Origin: Pseudarthrobacter sp. NS4
GTDB lineage: Bacteria > Actinomycetota > Actinomycetes > Actinomycetales > Micrococcaceae
Assembly (NCBI RefSeq): GCF_024758005.1
Contig: NZ_CP103288.1
Span: 3,224,001-3,288,000 of the forward strand
Length of the DNA: 64,000 nt
Reading direction: 5' to 3'
A program made the position numbers and the translations under genes. Shown here in pieces: positions 4,916 to 12,128 of this stretch. The notes below the pieces were generated by a model. The model saw nothing but the letters and a program-made list of their open reading frames with translations, was not told where the DNA came from and searched no databases. Each line of letters begins with the position of its first letter. Positions within the stretch are counted from its first letter, which is position 1.

Positions 4916-5821
4916 ATGGCACTTTCACCGCAGACGAAGACCAGGACCACAGCTCGACCCGCTCCCGGCTCGGGTTTCCTGTTCCTGCTTGCCACGCTGG
5001 CGTGTGTTGCAGGGTTGATGGCCACGTACTACTACTTTGTGCAGACCACCACAGGCCAGTTCATTGATGAGTCGGCCCTGGTGGAAGCCGTGGAGCTGCA
5101 CGGACCGGCAGGCAAGGCGAGCACCAGGTTCCTGGACCTGCTGCCCACCATCTCCCTGGTGATGGCCGCCGTCGTGGTGCTGTTTGTCACTGTGATCCGG
5201 AAGCGCTGGACCGAGGCCGGGATCGCGGTGGCGGCCTGCATCGGCGCGAATGTGGCAACGCAGGTGTTGAAGGCCCTGCTTCCGGCCCGTCCGGACAAGG
5301 GAGTGATCACGCTGGAGCTGAACTCGCTGCCGTCGGGGCACACCGCCCTGGCGGCGTCGGCGGCGGCTGCGGTGTTCCTCATGGCGTCACCGCGCTGGCG
5401 CCCGATGGCCGGATTTGTGGGCGGCACGTTCGCCATCGCCTCCGGGGTATCCACCCTGATTAACCAGTGGCACCGCCCGGCTGACGTGGTGGCGGCGTTC
5501 CTGCTGGTGGGTGCCTTCATGATTCCCGCCGGCTGGCTTATTATCCGGCGCGGGTCCTGGAATGCCTGGGACGGATTCGGCGGGCATATCGGGTCCGCCC
5601 GGATCTGGCTGACGCTGCCGGTGGTGATCGGGCTGGCCTCGGCAACCGTGGCCGTGTATTCGCTGATCCGCCTGGCGCCCAGTCCATGGCAGGAAACCAG
5701 CACTACCAACTATTTCTGGGCCGGGATTTCGCTGATCGTGATTGCCGGCTACCTGGCCACCGTAGCCACCACCTCGCTGTTCGCCTACGCCGCGCGCGGC
5801 CGGGGCCCGTCGAACCGCTGA
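4916..5821 (+). CDS. PAP2-family membrane phosphatase
   Basis: A 301-residue integral membrane lipid phosphatase, expected to dephosphorylate lipid phosphates or diphosphates at the membrane outer face. The acid-phosphatase signature is complete: KALLPARPDKG (K-x6-RP), LPSGHTALAASA (PSGH with catalytic His), and STLINQWHRPADVVAAF (S-x5-H-x3-D). Six hydrophobic segments are visible, with a basic N-terminus (TKTRTTARPAPGS) before the first. No good ribosome site precedes ATG 4916. It diverges from menC and converges with asnO. The substrate cannot be told from sequence; undecaprenyl-PP or phosphatidic acid are the usual candidates. Confidence 0.82.
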   Translation: MALSPQTKTRTTARPAPGSGFLFLLATLACVAGLMATYYYFVQTTTGQFIDESALVEAVELHGPAGKASTRFLDLLPTISLVMAAVVVLFVTVIRKRWTEAGIAVAACIGANVATQVLKALLPARPDKGVITLELNSLPSGHTALAASAAAAVFLMASPRWRPMAGFVGGTFAIASGVSTLINQWHRPADVVAAFLLVGAFMIPAGWLIIRRGSWNAWDGFGGHIGSARIWLTLPVVIGLASATVAVYSLIRLAPSPWQETSTTNYFWAGISLIVIAGYLATVATTSLFAYAARGRGPSNR

Positions 5822-5847: not shown

Positions 5848-7626
5848 TCAGCCCACCCTGTGGCGCTGTAGCCACATCTCCAGCAGGGCGAACTGCCACA
5901 GGACGTTGCTGTTCACGGGAGTCCGCCGGGTATTGGGATCCGCAAGCAGTTTATCGATGTACGCGGGCCGGAACAGCCCGCGCTGCTTGGCCTCGGGTGC
6001 GTGAAGGGCATCACGGACCATCGAGGTGAACGGTTCCTCCAGGTGCCGGAGCGCCGGGACCGGGAAGTATCCCTTGGGCCGGTCGATGATGGCGGATGGC
6101 AGCAGCTGCCGGCCCAGGTCCTTCAGGATCCCCTTCCCGCCCTGCGAGGCCTTGAGGCCGGGCGGGCAGGACGCCGCCAGCTCCACCAGTTCATGGTCCA
6201 GGAACGGAACACGCGCCTCAATCCCCCATGCCATGGACATGTTGTCCAGCCGTTTCACGGGATCGTCCACCATGAGCAGGTGGGTGTCCAGGCGCAGGAC
6301 GGCGTCCAGGGCGGTGTCGGCTCCGGGCGCGTCCAGGTTGGCGGCGAGCACCTGGCTGCTCACATCGGATCCGCAGAACCATTCGGGTTCGAGGATCCCC
6401 ACCAGGTCCTCGTGGGTGTGGTCCGCAAAGGATTTCGAGAACGCCGAAAGGGCGTCCTGGCGGCCCACACCGGCAAGGGGCTGGTGATACCGGTATCCGG
6501 CGAAGACTTCATCGGCGCCCTGCCCGCACTGCACCACCTTCAGGTGCTCCGCCACGGTTTTGGACAGCACGTGGAAAGCGGTCACGTCGTGGCTCGCCAT
6601 CGGCTCGGACATCGCACCTACGGCAGCGTCAATGGAGGGCGCGAATTCGGACGTGCTGATGTGGAGCCGTTCATGCCGGGTGCCGAACTCCCGTGCCACG
6701 AGGTCAGAGTAGGCGAACTCGTTGCCGGCGTCCCCGCCGACGCCGTCGAATCCGATGCTGAAGGTGGACAAACCGCGCTGGCCTTCCTCAGCCAGCAGGG
6801 CAACCAGGAGGCTCGAATCCAGGCCCCCGGAGAGAAGGACGCCTACCGGCACGTCGGCGACCATCCGCCGTCGTACTGCTGTCCGCAGGGCATCGCGGAT
6901 GGCATCCTGCCACTCCCGCGGCGACCACCCGGAGTGCTGTGCGCGGCGGGTGTAGTCCGGGCGCCAGTACTCGCTGTCATGCCAGGTTCCATCTGCGCGG
7001 ACGGTACGGATGGTGGCTGCCGGCAGCTTCTGGATTCCGCGGAGGATGGTACGCGGCGCCGGAACGATCGAGTGCCAGCTGAGGTAGTGGTGCAGCGCCG
7101 CTTCATCGATGCCGGTGTCCACACCACCGGACGCCACGAGCGCGGGCAGGGTGGATGCAAAGCGCAGCTTTCCCGGCAGTGTGGCTACGTACAGCGGCTT
7201 GATTCCCAGCCGGTCGCGGACCAGGAGCATCTCCTGCCGCTGCGGATCGTACAGCGCGATGGCGAACATCCCCACCAGGTGGTGGACAAAGCCGTCTCCC
7301 CATTTCCGGTAGGCCTTGAGGATCACCTCGGTGTCGCTGGTGGTCCGGAAGGTGAACTCAGGCTCCAGTTCCCGGCGCAGTTCCTTGTAGTTGTAGATGC
7401 AGCCGTTGAAGGTAACGGCCAGGCCTTCATCCAGCATGGGCTGGGCCCCCGTGGAGGAGAGGTCGATGATGCTGAGCCGCTGGTGCCCCAGTGCGACCCA
7501 GCCGGCGCCGTCCCACGTTCCCCTTCCGTCAGGTCCGCGGGAGGTCATGGCCCCCATCATTTTAAGGACCGGTTCCCGGGAGGCTGTCCCTCCGTTAAAG
7601 GCGGCTTCGCCTGCTATTCCGCACAT
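5848..7626 (-). CDS. AsnO-like amidotransferase (asparagine-synthetase family; N-acetylglutaminylglutamine amidotransferase type)
   Basis: Glutamine-hydrolysing amide synthetase, 592 residues. The N-terminal Ntn glutaminase domain begins with Cys2 (MCGIAGE), with RGPDGRG, LGHQRLSIIDLS and FNGCIYNYKELR. The C-terminal ATP-pyrophosphatase domain has the PP-loop VLLSGGLDSSLL near residue 265, then CGQGADEVFAGY and DHELVELAASCPPGLK. The ordering and wording of motifs (GGVDTGIDEAALHHYLSWHSIVPAPRTIL) resemble AsnO, which amidates the N-acetylglutaminylglutamine osmolyte, more than housekeeping AsnB. The usual partner (Ngg ATP-grasp/acetyltransferase synthetase) is absent; a GCS2 ligase lies 63 bp upstream instead. 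SD GAGGAAG precedes ATG 7626. Family is certain, substrate inferred. Confidence 0.85.
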   Translation of the reverse strand: MCGIAGEAAFNGGTASREPVLKMMGAMTSRGPDGRGTWDGAGWVALGHQRLSIIDLSSTGAQPMLDEGLAVTFNGCIYNYKELRRELEPEFTFRTTSDTEVILKAYRKWGDGFVHHLVGMFAIALYDPQRQEMLLVRDRLGIKPLYVATLPGKLRFASTLPALVASGGVDTGIDEAALHHYLSWHSIVPAPRTILRGIQKLPAATIRTVRADGTWHDSEYWRPDYTRRAQHSGWSPREWQDAIRDALRTAVRRRMVADVPVGVLLSGGLDSSLLVALLAEEGQRGLSTFSIGFDGVGGDAGNEFAYSDLVAREFGTRHERLHISTSEFAPSIDAAVGAMSEPMASHDVTAFHVLSKTVAEHLKVVQCGQGADEVFAGYRYHQPLAGVGRQDALSAFSKSFADHTHEDLVGILEPEWFCGSDVSSQVLAANLDAPGADTALDAVLRLDTHLLMVDDPVKRLDNMSMAWGIEARVPFLDHELVELAASCPPGLKASQGGKGILKDLGRQLLPSAIIDRPKGYFPVPALRHLEEPFTSMVRDALHAPEAKQRGLFRPAYIDKLLADPNTRRTPVNSNVLWQFALLEMWLQRHRVG

Positions 7627-7689
7627 AACTTCCTCGTTTCCTGCGGCTTACTGCGATCTACGCTTGCACTGCGCCGGACCACCGTGAGT

Positions 7690-8826
7690 TCATTGCGACT
7701 GCTCTGTGGATATCAGCGGCGCATCTTTCACGTCCACCAGCGGTGCAACCGGCAGGTTGCTGCTGTGCACGGCGTCGGCGATGACTCCGCGAAGACTCCC
7801 CGTTCTGGCATGGGCTTCGCGCTGCCGTGCGGCGCCGGTCCCCCGGGTCATGACCTGGAAGAGCAGGAACTCCACCGTGCCCAGCTCGCCGTGTTCCTCA
7901 AGCACCGGCCGCAGATGGTCCAGCAGTGCAGCAACCACTTCCGAGGCGGGCCGGGGCTTTCCGGTTACGGGGTCCGCCAGTTCGCCATCCAGCCCATAGC
8001 GGCTTGCCTGCCAGGCGGCCAGCCTCAGCCGGGAAGCCGATGCCGGAACCGGCGGCACGCCGTCGCACCACTGGCGTGCCGCCGTCTCCACCAACGCGCG
8101 CACCAGGGCGGCAAGAAGGACGGTGTCGTCGGCGAACAGGCACACGTCGGCCACCCGCACCTCAACCGTCGGATGTTTGTGGCTCAGCCGGGAGTCGAAG
8201 TAGAGGTTTGCTTTGTCCAGCGGAACGCCGGAACCAAGGACCTGCTCGATCTCGCTGTAATACCCGGCGGCCGAACCGTAGATTTCGGCCGGTCCGGTGG
8301 TGGGCCAGCGGTTCCAGGCCTGGGCCCGGTAACTCGCGTACGCCGAGTCCACGCCGTTCCAGTACGGCGAATTGGCGCTGATTGCCTGCAGGACGGGCAG
8401 CCAGATCCGGATGCGGTCCAGGACGGCCACTCCTTCCTCGTCCGACCCGATCTCCACGTGCACGTGGCAGCCGCACGTCAGCTGCTCCACGGCAGTCAGC
8501 CCGAACCTCCGCATCAGCCGGTCGCACCGCTCACCGGGGGCCACCGTGGAGGTTACGGGCATCGGGGAGGTTGCCAGGGCAACGGCACGCGCTCCAACAA
8601 GCCTGGCCGCGGCGTCGGCACTCTTGCGCCCGGCGGTGATGTCCTGGGCCAGTTCGCGGAGGCTGATGCGGGGAAGGGTGCAGGTTTCGATCTGTTCCTG
8701 CTTCATCTCGCTGGTGAGGCCCGGATAGTCACTGAGGCGTTCCAGCACGTCACCCAATGCGACGGGATGCCCGTCAACGCTGTCAACAATCAGGAATTCT
8801 TCTTCGACACCCAGCCGGCGTATCAT
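7690..8826 (-). CDS. Carboxylate-amine ligase, glutamate-cysteine ligase GCS2 family (YbdK/EgtA-like)
   Basis: An ATP-dependent ligase of the GCS2 family, 378 residues, expected to join the gamma-carboxyl of glutamate (or a related acid) to an amine. Key family sequences: LGVEEEFLIVD at the N-terminus (metal- and substrate-binding Glu residues), SEMKQEQIETCT, CGCHVHVEIGS (the CHVHV signature), ANSPYWNGVDSAYASYRAQAWNRWPTTG, and HPTVEVRVADVC. SD GCAGGAG precedes ATG 8826. It is the upstream gene of a pair with the AsnO-like synthetase, 63 bp apart. The role is unlikely to be ergothioneine synthesis, because no egtBCD genes are nearby. The acceptor amine is unknown. Confidence 0.85.
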   Translation of the reverse strand: MIRRLGVEEEFLIVDSVDGHPVALGDVLERLSDYPGLTSEMKQEQIETCTLPRISLRELAQDITAGRKSADAAARLVGARAVALATSPMPVTSTVAPGERCDRLMRRFGLTAVEQLTCGCHVHVEIGSDEEGVAVLDRIRIWLPVLQAISANSPYWNGVDSAYASYRAQAWNRWPTTGPAEIYGSAAGYYSEIEQVLGSGVPLDKANLYFDSRLSHKHPTVEVRVADVCLFADDTVLLAALVRALVETAARQWCDGVPPVPASASRLRLAAWQASRYGLDGELADPVTGKPRPASEVVAALLDHLRPVLEEHGELGTVEFLLFQVMTRGTGAARQREAHARTGSLRGVIADAVHSSNLPVAPLVDVKDAPLISTEQSQ

Positions 8827-9041
8827 CGCACTCCTGCAGTACGAGGCGATTTCGCGCTCGGCTCCCAGCCGGCGGGCGGGAAATTGCGGTGGTCAAGGTT
8901 AGCCACGATGCCTCCTCGGTGGACCGTGAAGCATTTGCATAACCTCAAATAGTCCTCACATGGTAAGCATGCTTATTTGTCCCAGGCAAGCAAACCGCGC
9001 AAAAACAGCCTCCGGCCGCCTGCCCGGCAGGGCTTGCCGGG

Positions 9042-9878
9042 TCAGAAAGCGCCGGGCTCGATGGAGATCGCCGCCGTGGCCCCGGACGTCGCCATTGATG
9101 CGGAGGCGACCGACGACGGCGTGGCCGGCAGCAGGCGGGACAGGTACTTTCCGCGGGCTGCTTCAATGAACCCGCGGAACAGGCCGAAGTCCTCGGGAAG
9201 TTCCTCCGGGTGCCACTGGATGCCGAGGGCAAAGCTGTTGGCCGGGTATTCGATGGCTTCCACCACCTGATCCTCGCTCCAGGCGGCGGCTACCAGGCCC
9301 TCGCCGAGCTTGTCCACTGCCTGGTGGTGGGCAACGGGAACAATCTGGGTGTCCGAGCCGATCAAACGGGCAAGCTGCGAGTCGGGGCGCACTTCAACGG
9401 GTATCTGGTTGAAGGCGTAGCCGCCCAGCTGGTACTGCCCGTTTCCCACCACCTCGGGCAGATGCTGGTGGAGGGTGCCGCCCAGCGTGACGTTCAGCAA
9501 CTGTTCCCCGCGGCAGATGCACAGCAGGGGCACGTCCTGGCGGAGCGCCTCACGGATCAGGGCCTGTTCCCAGGCGTCACGTTCCGGCCGGGGCTCGTCG
9601 GTTTCCGCATGGGCTTCCTGGCCGTAGAGGGCGGGGTCCACATCCCAGCCGCCGGGAATCAGGAGACCGTCCAGCCTGCCCACCAGGGCTTCGATCACAC
9701 CGGCCGCGACGGGCTGGGGCGGCAGGAGCGTGGGGACGCCGCCTGCGGCGATGATGGGGATCAGGTACGTCTCGGGAAGGAACGCCGCGCTGACGGTGCC
9801 GCAGCCCGCGGTACCGGCCTGCTCAAGGTAAGTGCTGAGGCCGATGATGGGCTTCACGGCAGCGTCGGTTGTTTCCAA
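9042..9878 (-). CDS. Gamma-glutamyl-GABA hydrolase-like class-I amidotransferase (peptidase C26, PuuD-type)
   Basis: A 278-residue hydrolase of the C26 family, which cleaves gamma-glutamyl bonds such as gamma-glutamyl-GABA. Visible features: KPIIGLSTY at the N-terminus, the VGRLDGLLIPGGWDVDP oxyanion loop, the nucleophile block VPLLCICRGEQLLNV (second Cys), the VAHHQAVDKLG segment and the catalytic GIQWHPEE His-Glu pair. The start is chosen as TTG 9878, because GGAAGGA lies 5-6 bases upstream; a longer ORF to ATG 9953 encodes an unlikely extension. The last 30 residues (Ala/Ser-rich) exceed the usual fold. It is 215 bp upstream of the GCS2 ligase on the same strand, so it may act on the same gamma-glutamyl product. 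Confidence 0.82.
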   Translation of the reverse strand: METTDAAVKPIIGLSTYLEQAGTAGCGTVSAAFLPETYLIPIIAAGGVPTLLPPQPVAAGVIEALVGRLDGLLIPGGWDVDPALYGQEAHAETDEPRPERDAWEQALIREALRQDVPLLCICRGEQLLNVTLGGTLHQHLPEVVGNGQYQLGGYAFNQIPVEVRPDSQLARLIGSDTQIVPVAHHQAVDKLGEGLVAAAWSEDQVVEAIEYPANSFALGIQWHPEELPEDFGLFRGFIEAARGKYLSRLLPATPSSVASASMATSGATAAISIEPGAF

Positions 9879-10127
9879 TGTGTTCCTTCCAGGCGATTTC
9901 CCTGCATACAAGGATATGAGACCGCCGGGCCCCAATTGTTTCCGGCACGTCAAATTCGCGTATCAGTCAAGCACCCGCGGGGCCAAAAAAACCAGCCGAA
10001 AGCTTGACCGAACCTTGAGTAATTACTGGCGAGTAACTTGATCCTGGTCCACAAAGCTGTGTTCAGAAGGAGCCGCTCAGGGCTCAAAGTCTGCGGACAC
10101 CGCACAAGAAGTTTTTAGGGGACACAT

Positions 10128-10601
10128 ATGAGCCAGGCTGCTGGACGTAAGAAACGCATCATCGGCACCACCGTGGCACTGGTAGCAATCGGCGGCGGCG
10201 CTGCCTTCGCTTACTGGACCGCTACAGGCACGGGCAACACCACTACTGCGGCGGGCACTTCCGCGAACTTCACCGTCACCAGCACCGTTGCCGGCGCCCC
10301 GCTCTCCCCGAATGGTCCAACCCAGACGGCCACCTTTACGGTGACCAACCCGGGCACCGGCGTCCAGAAGCTCAGCACCGTTGCCGTTACCGTCGCAGCT
10401 ACCGACGGCTCGGCCTGGACAGCCGTCAACGGCTGCTCTGCCGCCGACTTCACCGTGGGAAGCCCCAACTTCACTGCCACCGAAATCCCGGCCGGCGGCG
10501 AGGTAACCGGCACAGTGACTCTTCAGATGATCGACCGCCCGGGTGTCAACCAGGACGGTTGCAGGGGCGCCACGGTGCCCCTGCATTTCTCGGCCAGCTG
10601 A
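10128..10601 (+). CDS. Small exported protein with SipW/TasA-type signal peptide
   Basis: 157 residues. The N-terminus is basic (GRKKR), followed by a hydrophobic helix with the ending AAFAYWTATGTGNTTTAA, the kind of A-Y-W junction found in SipW-dependent camelysin/TasA-like secreted proteins. The mature part is Thr/Ala/Val-rich and probably an all-beta sandwich (TATFTVTNPGTGVQKLSTVAVTV), with two cysteines (NGCSAADF and QDGCRGATV) that could pair. The start ATG 10128 follows AGGGGAC. A second protein with the same signal type (ASAYWRASGTGNTTAA) is encoded about 100 bp downstream, so the two are probably co-expressed. No sipW signal peptidase gene is present nearby. Function unknown; a fibre or matrix role is only a possibility. 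Confidence 0.7.
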   Translation: MSQAAGRKKRIIGTTVALVAIGGGAAFAYWTATGTGNTTTAAGTSANFTVTSTVAGAPLSPNGPTQTATFTVTNPGTGVQKLSTVAVTVAATDGSAWTAVNGCSAADFTVGSPNFTATEIPAGGEVTGTVTLQMIDRPGVNQDGCRGATVPLHFSAS

Positions 10602-10706: not shown

Positions 10707-12128
10707 GTGCCCACCATCGCCAGCTCCCCCGAAGCCTCCCCCCGGCTTCGGAGGGAGCTGGTTTTGGTTGTCACAATCCTGCGTTCCGGGGTGTTTGCCC
10801 TCGTTGTGCTCTTCGTAACGGCTGCGCTGGGTGCCGTTCCCGCTTCCGCCTACTGGCGTGCCAGCGGAACAGGCAATACGACGGCGGCAGTCGCCACCCT
10901 GCTGCCTCCCACCAACGTGTCAGTACCGGCCAACAGCAACTCCAGTGTGGCCGTCAGCTGGACCGGCTCCTCCGGAACAGTGGCCCCCACCGGGTACTAC
11001 GTCACCCGCATCACCGGTTCCACCACGATGCCCGCCTGCGGTTCCAGCCCCGCTGCCCTCATCCCAGCCACGACGTGCACGGACACGTCGGTTCCGGAAG
11101 GCATCCACAAGTACCAGGTCACGGCTGTCTACCGTTCCTGGAGCGCCGCCGGCACCGTGAGCGGGAACGTGACGGTGACCAGCATGCGGGACCTTTCCTT
11201 CAGCTCCCAGCCGCCCACTTCTGTTACAGCCGGTTCACCCATCACTACGTTCAGCGTTCAACTGCGGACCGCCTTTGGCCTCCCCGTATGGGAATCCGGT
11301 GTCCCGATCACCATCAGCATCGGCGCAAACCCCGGCGGAGGAACACTGTCGGGATCCCTAACGGCCAACACCAACTGGTCCGGCACTGCCACCTTCAGCG
11401 GGCTTTCCATCAACAAAGCAGGATCGGGCTACAGCCTTATGGCCTCCAGCCCGGGCTTCGCCGGAGTAGCCAGCAGCGGCTTCACAGTCACACCGGCAGC
11501 CGCCAGCAAGCTCGTAGTGACTACCGGCAGCACCATCAGCGGCACCGCTTCATCGGCCGCGCTCCTCGGCCCGGTCACGGTGGAGCGCCAAGATGCCTAC
11601 GGAAATGCTGTCAGCGTTGGAACCACGGCCGTGACGCTGTCCACCACTTCAACGTCAACGGGAACCCTCGCTGCCACAGTGAACGGCGCCAAGGTCACCA
11701 CGGTAACCATCCCGGCCGGCTCGGCCTCGGCGCCGTTCTTCTACGGCGACACCAAAGCGGGCAACGCAACCATATCCCTTGCAGCATCAGGCCTGACCAG
11801 CCCGGCACCGGTGACGGCGACCATCACGGCGGCAGCCCCCGCAAAGCTCAAGTTCGATGCCGTTCCGGCCGTGGTCCTGAAGAACGCGCCCATCACCCCG
11901 CCTGTCACGGTCCGGATCCTGGACACGTTCGGGAACCAGACGGACAGCGCCGCCCAGGTCACGCTGCAATCCGCCTGCAGCACCAAGGGCACGCTCACCA
12001 GGGCAGCGGTTTCGGGTGTGGCTGCCTTCCCCGACCTTGAAATTGCCGGCAAAGCATCAGGATGCACGCTGACTGCCACGAGCGGCATGCTGGCTGCGGA
12101 TACCAGCACCCCGTTCAACTCGGACTAG
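10707..12128 (+). CDS. Exported multi-domain Ig-like/FN3-like protein with SipW-type signal
   Basis: 473 residues. A hydrophobic N-terminal segment (residues about 20-48) ends in ASAYWRASGTGNTTAAVATL, matching the upstream 157-residue protein. A fibronectin-III-like domain follows (APTGYYVTRITG, GIHKYQVTAVYRSW), then about three bacterial Ig-like modules marked by SQPPTSVTAGSPITTFSVQL, KLVVTTGSTISGTASSAALLGPVTVERQDAYGNAV and KLKFDAVPAVVLKNAPITPPVTVRILDTFGNQT. The DAYGN/DTFGN turns are typical of filamin-like bacterial surface repeats. No LPxTG or other cell-wall anchor is seen, so it is secreted or held by partner proteins. The 3' end overlaps the convergent LssY-domain gene by 14 bp. Confidence 0.7.
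   Translation: MPTIASSPEASPRLRRELVLVVTILRSGVFALVVLFVTAALGAVPASAYWRASGTGNTTAAVATLLPPTNVSVPANSNSSVAVSWTGSSGTVAPTGYYVTRITGSTTMPACGSSPAALIPATTCTDTSVPEGIHKYQVTAVYRSWSAAGTVSGNVTVTSMRDLSFSSQPPTSVTAGSPITTFSVQLRTAFGLPVWESGVPITISIGANPGGGTLSGSLTANTNWSGTATFSGLSINKAGSGYSLMASSPGFAGVASSGFTVTPAAASKLVVTTGSTISGTASSAALLGPVTVERQDAYGNAVSVGTTAVTLSTTSTSTGTLAATVNGAKVTTVTIPAGSASAPFFYGDTKAGNATISLAASGLTSPAPVTATITAAAPAKLKFDAVPAVVLKNAPITPPVTVRILDTFGNQTDSAAQVTLQSACSTKGTLTRAAVSGVAAFPDLEIAGKASGCTLTATSGMLAADTSTPFNSD

Follow-up and report, generated by a model that had tools for sequence, protein, structure and literature searches.

The equivalog model TIGR03104 annotates AsnO as N-acetylglutaminylglutamine amidotransferase, and the presence of such a protein is read in papers as synthesis of N-acetylglutaminylglutamine amide (NAGGN). 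The third gene of the NAGGN system is peptidase-like (TIGR03106), and Iyer and colleagues are said to have predicted, in 2009, amidoligase systems in which small peptides are made by GCS2 and ATP-grasp ligases together with peptidases. NAGGN itself is an osmolyte, and its asnO-ngg system is known from Sinorhizobium meliloti and further organisms (Sagot et al., 2010, as retold in excerpts of PMC5563000). Here we analyse a 64,000-nucleotide stretch of the genome of the soil actinobacterium Pseudarthrobacter sp. NS4 (NZ_CP103288.1, positions 3,224,001 to 3,288,000; hereafter the window), in which an AsnO-type gene has no Ngg gene beside it and is instead preceded by a gene for a GCS2 family carboxylate-amine ligase, a pairing on which we found no literature within open-licence PMC. 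Based on sequence comparisons, we propose a reduced, Ngg-independent AsnO system in which the GCS2 ligase would make a gamma-glutamyl compound and AsnO would amidate its alpha-carboxylate, a reading to which we assign a probability of about 0.55.

The AsnO and GCS2 proteins of the window

The window AsnO scores 844.7 bits with TIGR03104, well above the cut-off of 570.1, and retains Cys2 and the PP-loop SGGLDSS as read from the sequence. The GCS2 protein passes NF010041 (455.8 bits, cut-off 332) and TIGR02050 (273.5 bits, cut-off 176.4), scores 177.8 bits with PF04107 and carries the motifs GVEEEF and CxCHVHVE; the solved structures nearest to it by sequence are those of YbdK (1r8g and 1tt4). 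Both assignments agree with the initial annotation, which had described an AsnO-like synthetase and a GCS2 carboxylate-amine ligase from the sequence alone. The AsnO-linked GCS2 proteins of five other loci (L073, L161, L160, L084 and L055) all pass NF010041 as well. Separately, the window's genome holds two further GCS2 genes, less than 8 kb apart (L247:7574-16672).

Partners of AsnO in Actinomycetes

The window genome is a single contig of 4.44 Mb, estimated to be 100% complete, and its best match to Ngg (TIGR03103) reaches 32.6 bits against a cut-off of 569. Likewise, none of 120 Micrococcaceae genomes has Ngg over cut-off, while six have AsnO over cut-off. In five of these six (G000, G116, G110, G021 and G093) a GCS2 gene stands beside an AsnO copy; in the sixth, G031, GCS2 (70% identity) lies away from AsnO and 5.7 kb from a decarboxylase gene (76% identity), and we count this proximity of two orthologues of the operon described below in favour of the proposed pathway. 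An ngg homologue elsewhere in the genome, which the initial annotation had named as evidence against its reading, was thus not found over cut-off in the window genome or in the family.

We extended the comparison to an evenly drawn sample of 394 Actinomycetes genomes, with a survey of Ngg at E values up to 1e-100 that does not list its weak relatives. AsnO is over cut-off in 106 genomes and Ngg in 52; both occur in 49, AsnO alone in 57 and Ngg alone in three. Wherever both occur (49 of 49 genomes), the two genes lie less than 1 kb apart on the same strand. The 57 Ngg-free genomes comprise G000, G031 and 55 others whose loci were compared with reference proteins by tblastn. A GCS2 match lies within 4 kb of AsnO in 49 of the 55 loci, always upstream and on the same strand, and no match to an Ngg reference was found near AsnO in any of the 55. 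The chance of such proximity is roughly 0.6%, a figure that rests on the GCS2 copy numbers of nine genomes, mostly exceptions and not a random choice, with two partial matches of G291 left out. For comparison, 18 AsnO loci were taken from 17 of the 49 genomes that carry AsnO and Ngg; the partner within 4 kb is Ngg in 17 of these loci and GCS2 in the remaining one (L230). A search with window-like AsnO peptides led to 98 confirmed loci; of the best 80, Ngg is present in 58, GCS2 in 15 and neither in seven. Six of the 80 are Micromonospora loci, and in three of these (L084, L133 and L136) GCS2 adjoins AsnO but is encoded on the other strand. Together with seven Micrococcaceae loci (the window and L052-L057), the sets make up 160 AsnO loci, whose genomes may overlap between sets: 75 with Ngg, 70 with GCS2, 15 with neither and none with both. 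AsnO in the examined loci therefore has one of two partners, Ngg directly downstream or GCS2 usually upstream, and never both. The proposal that GCS2 stands in the place of Ngg, already made in the initial annotation, has survived these genomic tests, and replacement of one by the other is well supported at the level of gene content.

The AsnO tree follows the same division. In a tree of 112 rows made with a quick method (29 of the best-80 loci used, the broken L150 left out and three AsnB-like outgroup rows included), 25 Ngg-partnered rows stand apart from 69 GCS2-partnered rows with a single change of partner label. The Ngg rows group with the unlabelled L206 (support 92, unstarred), and the GCS2 rows fall into a set of 27 (support 99, starred; 21 GCS2-partnered, six with neither partner near) and a set of 54 (support 98, starred; 48 GCS2-partnered, six with neither), the window AsnO being placed in the GCS2-partnered part. 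Supported sets are likewise pure in a more careful tree of 50 rows built under a mixture model, but its deepest forks are unsettled and it does not separate one origin of the GCS2 pairing from several; the 112-row tree gives the cleaner split with the weaker method. A tree of GCS2 proteins (87 rows) groups 47 AsnO-linked sequences together (support 90) and places the window-type Micrococcaceae in a set of their own (support 100, starred; 11 linked sequences and L211), while the AsnO-linked GCS2 proteins of L055-L057 and L081 lie nearer to unlinked paralogues. Since these come from other branches, the association of AsnO with GCS2 probably arose repeatedly.

The synthetase region is conserved between the two AsnO types, and only two alignment columns, 276 and 568, separate them at 85%, too few for a guess at the substrate. 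Because so little separates the types, the acceptor end is probably alike in both, that is, glutamine-like with a free alpha-carboxylate. A natural pair in which to ask what fixes the substrate of AsnO is offered by G314, which has one AsnO gene beside Ngg and in the Ngg set (L229) and a second beside GCS2 and in the GCS2 set (L230).

Two groups of Micrococcaceae AsnO proteins stand apart. In L055:7281-9065, L056:8513-10291 and L057:7767-9536 the glutaminase half has drifted, with changes in the GHxRL and NGxxYN motifs, and L055 has lost Cys2 and kept the PP-loop; these proteins are perhaps ammonia-dependent. A second AsnO type of G116 (L052:7252-9036) and the only type of G031 (L054:7797-9581) have neither GCS2 nor Ngg within 4 kb; L052 is adjoined by DUF2254 and aldo-keto reductase genes, and related genes are found in L054.

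The operon in relatives and its reduction in the window

Fifteen Micrococcaceae loci are of the window type (the window, L053, L072-L082, L089 and L150). In the relatives the order is C26 hydrolase, GCS2, decarboxylase, AsnO and M20 peptidase, followed by a convergent PAP2 gene; in L073, for example, the M20 gene lies between AsnO and PAP2. The decarboxylase is a protein of the Orn/Lys/Arg type (492 aa, PF01276 and PF03711). It is full length in eight of the 15 loci, present in pieces in five (L076, L077, L079, L089 and L150, where AsnO is kept except in L150, in which it is split too) and without a protein match in the window and L072. GCS2 is matched in 13 loci, including a 75-aa piece in L077 and the L081 copy, and M20 and C26 in 11 each (C26 within 4 kb). 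Judged by these comparisons, the window operon is a stripped-down version that has lost the decarboxylase and the M20 peptidase, two genes missing from the set given in the initial annotation. Its three remaining genes lie on one strand, as first described, and the reported spacings of 63 bp and 0.2 kb correspond to the spacer in Table 1 and to a gap of 215 bp between GCS2 and C26 (8827-9041).

Table 1. Genes and spacer of the AsnO locus in the window.
Feature	Positions	Strand	Length and basis
AsnO-type amidotransferase (N-terminal nucleophile glutaminase and PP-loop synthetase), GCS2-partnered subtype	5848-7626	minus	592 aa; TIGR03104
Spacer, 63 bp, probable deletion scar	7627-7689	minus	side-by-side comparison with L073, counted by eye
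GCS2 family (YbdK-type) carboxylate-amine ligase	7690-8826	minus	378 aa; NF010041, TIGR02050, PF04107
C26 hydrolase, PuuD-like, probable accessory	9042-9953	minus	303 aa from TTG; PF07722
PAP2 phosphatase, convergent, marks operon end	4916-5821	plus	PF01569

Within the spacer, positions 7627-7660 match L073 at 32 of 34 bases (by eye): all 21 bases of the AsnO leader agree, as do 11 of 13 at the end of the decarboxylase gene. This is modest evidence for a probable deletion scar of the decarboxylase. L072 retains the first codons of this gene (by eye). No orthologue of the operon decarboxylase was found in the window genome, where the best match has 28% identity and 38 bits. The ratio of nonsynonymous to synonymous differences (pN/pS) is nearly the same for the window as among its relatives: 0.19 against 0.20 for AsnO (11 sequences; 0.15-0.27 with ten relatives), 0.31 against 0.31 for GCS2 (11 sequences) and 0.25 against 0.26 for C26 (8 sequences). 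All are rough values: pS is near 0.5, the compared pairs lack independence, and decay of recent date would leave no trace in them. We considered the decarboxylase as an obligate partner and rejected this, since, of five Micrococcaceae genomes that have its orthologue, three carry no AsnO over cut-off.

The C26 protein scores 212.6 bits with PF07722, contains the motifs ICRGEQ and WHPE as read from the sequence and has 3fij and 6vtv (PuuD) as relatives in the PDB. Its start is either the TTG giving 9953 or a position near 9878, which the initial annotation had chosen. The label "PuuD-type" holds at the level of the superfamily and fails at that of the equivalog, as the score with NF008471 (gamma-glutamyl-gamma-aminobutyrate hydrolase) is 102.9 bits against a cut-off of 266. 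C26 is the weakest link of the proposed set: outside Micrococcaceae the only locus found to have it within 4 kb of AsnO is L234, where the partner is Ngg, and L089 and L150 retain it although their GCS2 is gone. Although it is found in 11 of the 15 window-type loci, we rejected it as a core member because it persists where GCS2 is lost, and treat it as a probable accessory. The pathway first suggested is thus partly supported. Co-occurrence among relatives holds for AsnO and GCS2, reaches far outside Micrococcaceae and follows the AsnO tree, and GCS2 in place of Ngg stands; a core part for C26, a free dipeptide as the product and the role as an osmolyte did not gain such support.

Some neighbouring features were also recorded. 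Downstream of the operon, menC and PhoX genes lie beyond the PAP2 gene. On its other side, two plus-strand open reading frames (10128-10601 and 10707-12128) encode proteins that share an AYW.A.GTGNTT-like stretch past the signal region (by eye), the first of them without a Pfam match. In L250:5597-8347 and L254:6581-9254, AsnO-free GCS2 paralogues directly adjoin an M20 peptidase gene whose product is 28-31% identical to that of the operon, possibly a separate GCS2-M20 pair.

Other versions of the operon

Loci of family f25 can encode GCS2 as a fusion with a circularly permuted ATP-grasp domain (PF14403, 422.7 bits in L161); AsnO comes next, then an S9 peptidase and in many cases a GNAT protein. 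Among the 55 Ngg-free loci, tblastn places the ATP-grasp part within 4 kb of AsnO in 36, S9 in 46, GNAT in 22 and a decarboxylase in three; Pfam checks cover the fusion in L161 (f25) and L186 (f46), S9 in L184, L186 and L160, and GNAT in L172 and L180, the remaining loci being assigned by tblastn only. The decarboxylase lies 2.3-2.8 kb downstream of AsnO in three loci of family f26 (L182, L185 and L191), its class being assigned from 52-54% tblastn identity.

Because nifH is over cut-off in six of the seven f25 genomes tested (and in none of three others), and in view of the gene order, f25 is probably Frankiaceae. Casuarina Frankia strains are reported to carry AsnO followed by a dipeptidase and, after that, an "Ngg" less than 15% identical to other Ngg proteins (excerpts of PMC5563000), an order that would fit the AsnO-S9-GNAT arrangement of f25. 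The GCS2 fusion upstream seems to have gone unnoticed in that paper, as the term "carboxylate-amine" is absent from its text. In Frankia alni exposed to polyethylene glycol (PEG), FRAAL1888 (glutamine amidotransferase, 2.20) and FRAAL2171 (acyl-CoA N-acyltransferase, 1.5) rise, and both are attributed to NAGGN synthesis (excerpts of PMC5768760); seemingly, they are the genes equivalent to the GCS2-type set. NAGGN is produced by Micromonospora MT25, for which asnO and ngg were predicted (excerpts of PMC8146288), in line with an Ngg-type AsnO making NAGGN. Two genes of Mycobacterium smegmatis, MSMEG_2594 for an asparagine synthase and MSMEG_5590 for a carboxylate-amine ligase, are listed separately as SigF-dependent (excerpts of PMC4694148); by their numbers they are not neighbours.

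Proposed pathway and its alternatives

The pathway that we propose combines the chemistry of the enzyme families with the conservation of AsnO. GCS2 enzymes of known function join via the gamma-carboxyl of glutamate, and C26 is a hydrolase class that cleaves gamma-glutamyl amines. In the window, the GCS2 ligase would couple an amine or amino group to glutamate at the gamma-carboxyl, which would yield a glutamine with a substituent on the nitrogen of the side chain (N5-substituted glutamine). The alpha-carboxylate of this compound would resemble the C-terminal glutamine amidated by AsnO in NAGGN synthesis, and AsnO may amidate it using glutamine and ATP. In complete Micrococcaceae operons the pyridoxal phosphate-dependent Orn/Lys/Arg-type decarboxylase would supply the amine, while removal of the product would fall to the M20 and C26 hydrolases. 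The window has lost the decarboxylase and M20, and there the amine or amino acid would have to come from elsewhere. The result would be a small amide free of carboxylate, perhaps a compatible solute, with the decarboxylase, the hydrolases and the f25 ATP-grasp and GNAT parts varying its partner, turnover and end groups.

Several observations weigh against this pathway. Seven of the 57 Ngg-free genomes have no GCS2 within 4 kb of AsnO (L173, L179, L181, L197, L205, L206 and G031); GCS2 lies 5.8 kb away in L179, L181 has only the ATP-grasp part and the contig of L206 is 5.9 kb long. All seven genomes carry GCS2 elsewhere, which is weak comfort since GCS2 paralogues are common. L187 was scored as GCS2-positive despite a contig that breaks off within the gene, and among the best 80 of 98 loci the Micromonospora loci L098, L129 and L143 have neither partner near. 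Within the window type, the GCS2 of L081 lies downstream of AsnO and comes from another branch, L089 and L150 have lost GCS2 and kept C26, and the decarboxylase occurs in family members that lack AsnO over cut-off. Moreover, with TIGR01536, a general model of asparagine synthases, the window AsnO reaches 414.5 bits, over the cut-off of 267.1 and half its TIGR03104 score, and the near-identity of the AsnO types would fit an unchanged product equally well.

This last point bears on the view that the product is the same and only its enzymes differ: by non-orthologous replacement, a GCS2 set, with ATP-grasp and GNAT in loci that have them, would make N-acetylglutaminylglutamine and AsnO would turn it into NAGGN. 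The two columns that consistently separate the AsnO types would agree with this, as would the match of the f25 fusion, AsnO, S9 and GNAT to the functions of Ngg and the peptidase, and the rise of FRAAL1888 and FRAAL2171 under PEG. We nevertheless consider it unlikely, as nothing within 4 kb of AsnO matches the GNAT or ATP-grasp references of f25 in the window and 19 other Micrococcaceae loci (a dissimilar GNAT would be missed), the gamma-carboxyl chemistry of known GCS2 enzymes argues otherwise and, in the excerpts seen, NAGGN was measured only in MT25, which is reported to have asnO and ngg. The amide might instead be a polyamine conjugate, the alpha-amide of gamma-glutamyl-putrescine, -cadaverine or -agmatine, serving polyamine or nitrogen handling and not osmoprotection. 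Such a role, suggested by the decarboxylase beside AsnO (full length in eight and detectable in 13 of the 15 window-type loci) and downstream of it in the three f26 loci, and by the activity of the C26 class on gamma-glutamyl amines, is not probable in our judgement, given that the decarboxylase is lost in the window and L072, is broken in five other loci while AsnO stays (except in L150) and occurs in just three of the 55 Ngg-free loci.

That the operon is decaying and has no present function appears quite improbable; the deletion of the decarboxylase and M20 genes in the window, the further breaks in relatives and the split AsnO of L150 speak for it, whereas the pN/pS values of the window AsnO, GCS2 and C26, within the limits given above, equal those of the relatives. 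We rejected the idea of an ordinary asparagine synthetase with unrelated neighbours, which we regard as very improbable indeed, although TIGR01536 is passed and Escherichia coli AsnB is a sequence relative. The TIGR03104 score is double, the pattern of partners speaks against this idea, and free aspartate is unlikely to be needed as the acceptor, since each of the 21 genomes from the genus has gatB and five congeners of G000 show no match below 1e-7 with the AsnO model. AsnO also has GQGADE where AsnB has GEGSDE, at a position that we take to be important for aspartate, a point weakened by the AsnB-like outgroup L020, which has GQGADE too.

Returning to the gamma-glutamyl amide pathway, the exchange of Ngg for GCS2 in many actinobacteria suggests a widespread small-amide pathway that is mislabelled. 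For the Ngg-free AsnO genomes, Frankia-like nitrogen fixers included, the NAGGN reading is probably mistaken or only part of the picture, because 57 of the 106 AsnO-bearing genomes sampled have no Ngg over cut-off and most of their loci have GCS2. More tentatively, and with considerable doubt, about half of the AsnO-bearing Actinomycetes might make, not NAGGN, but alpha-amidated gamma-glutamyl compounds, undescribed neutral or cationic compatible solutes currently annotated as NAGGN synthesis, which would be N-acetylated and lengthened in the ATP-grasp/GNAT version and would carry a decarboxylation-derived amine in Micrococcaceae, with the same AsnO chemistry. The proposal predicts a stress metabolite with named enzymes and is directly testable.

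Comparison with known systems

The individual proteins of the locus resemble known families. Its AsnO aligns over most of its length, as a two-domain amidotransferase, with the hydroxyamidotransferase 7ylz (198.6 bits) and AsnB 1ct9 (158.6 bits), the best solved sequence relatives, which act on other substrates and score low. Its GCS2 shares family and motifs with the YbdK ligases (TIGR02050; 1r8g and 1tt4) and differs from them in being partnered with AsnO. As in the predicted amidoligase systems mentioned at the outset, small peptides or related compounds would be made by GCS2 or ATP-grasp ligases in the company of peptidases. The Frankia "asnO-ngg cluster" (excerpts of PMC5563000 and PMC5768760) fits the f25 order, its last gene having been taken for Ngg; the window, by contrast, has neither S9 nor GNAT beside AsnO. 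With the NAGGN system of S. meliloti the window shares an AsnO over the equivalog cut-off and a conserved synthetase region. A further likeness is that a peptidase often follows; among the window neighbours scanned only C26 is peptidase-like. It differs in that Ngg was not found in its genome and that GCS2 lies upstream of AsnO. Because the defining Ngg was searched for and not found, we do not assign the locus to the NAGGN system; on present sequence evidence, we file it as a variant of the AsnO amide pathways.

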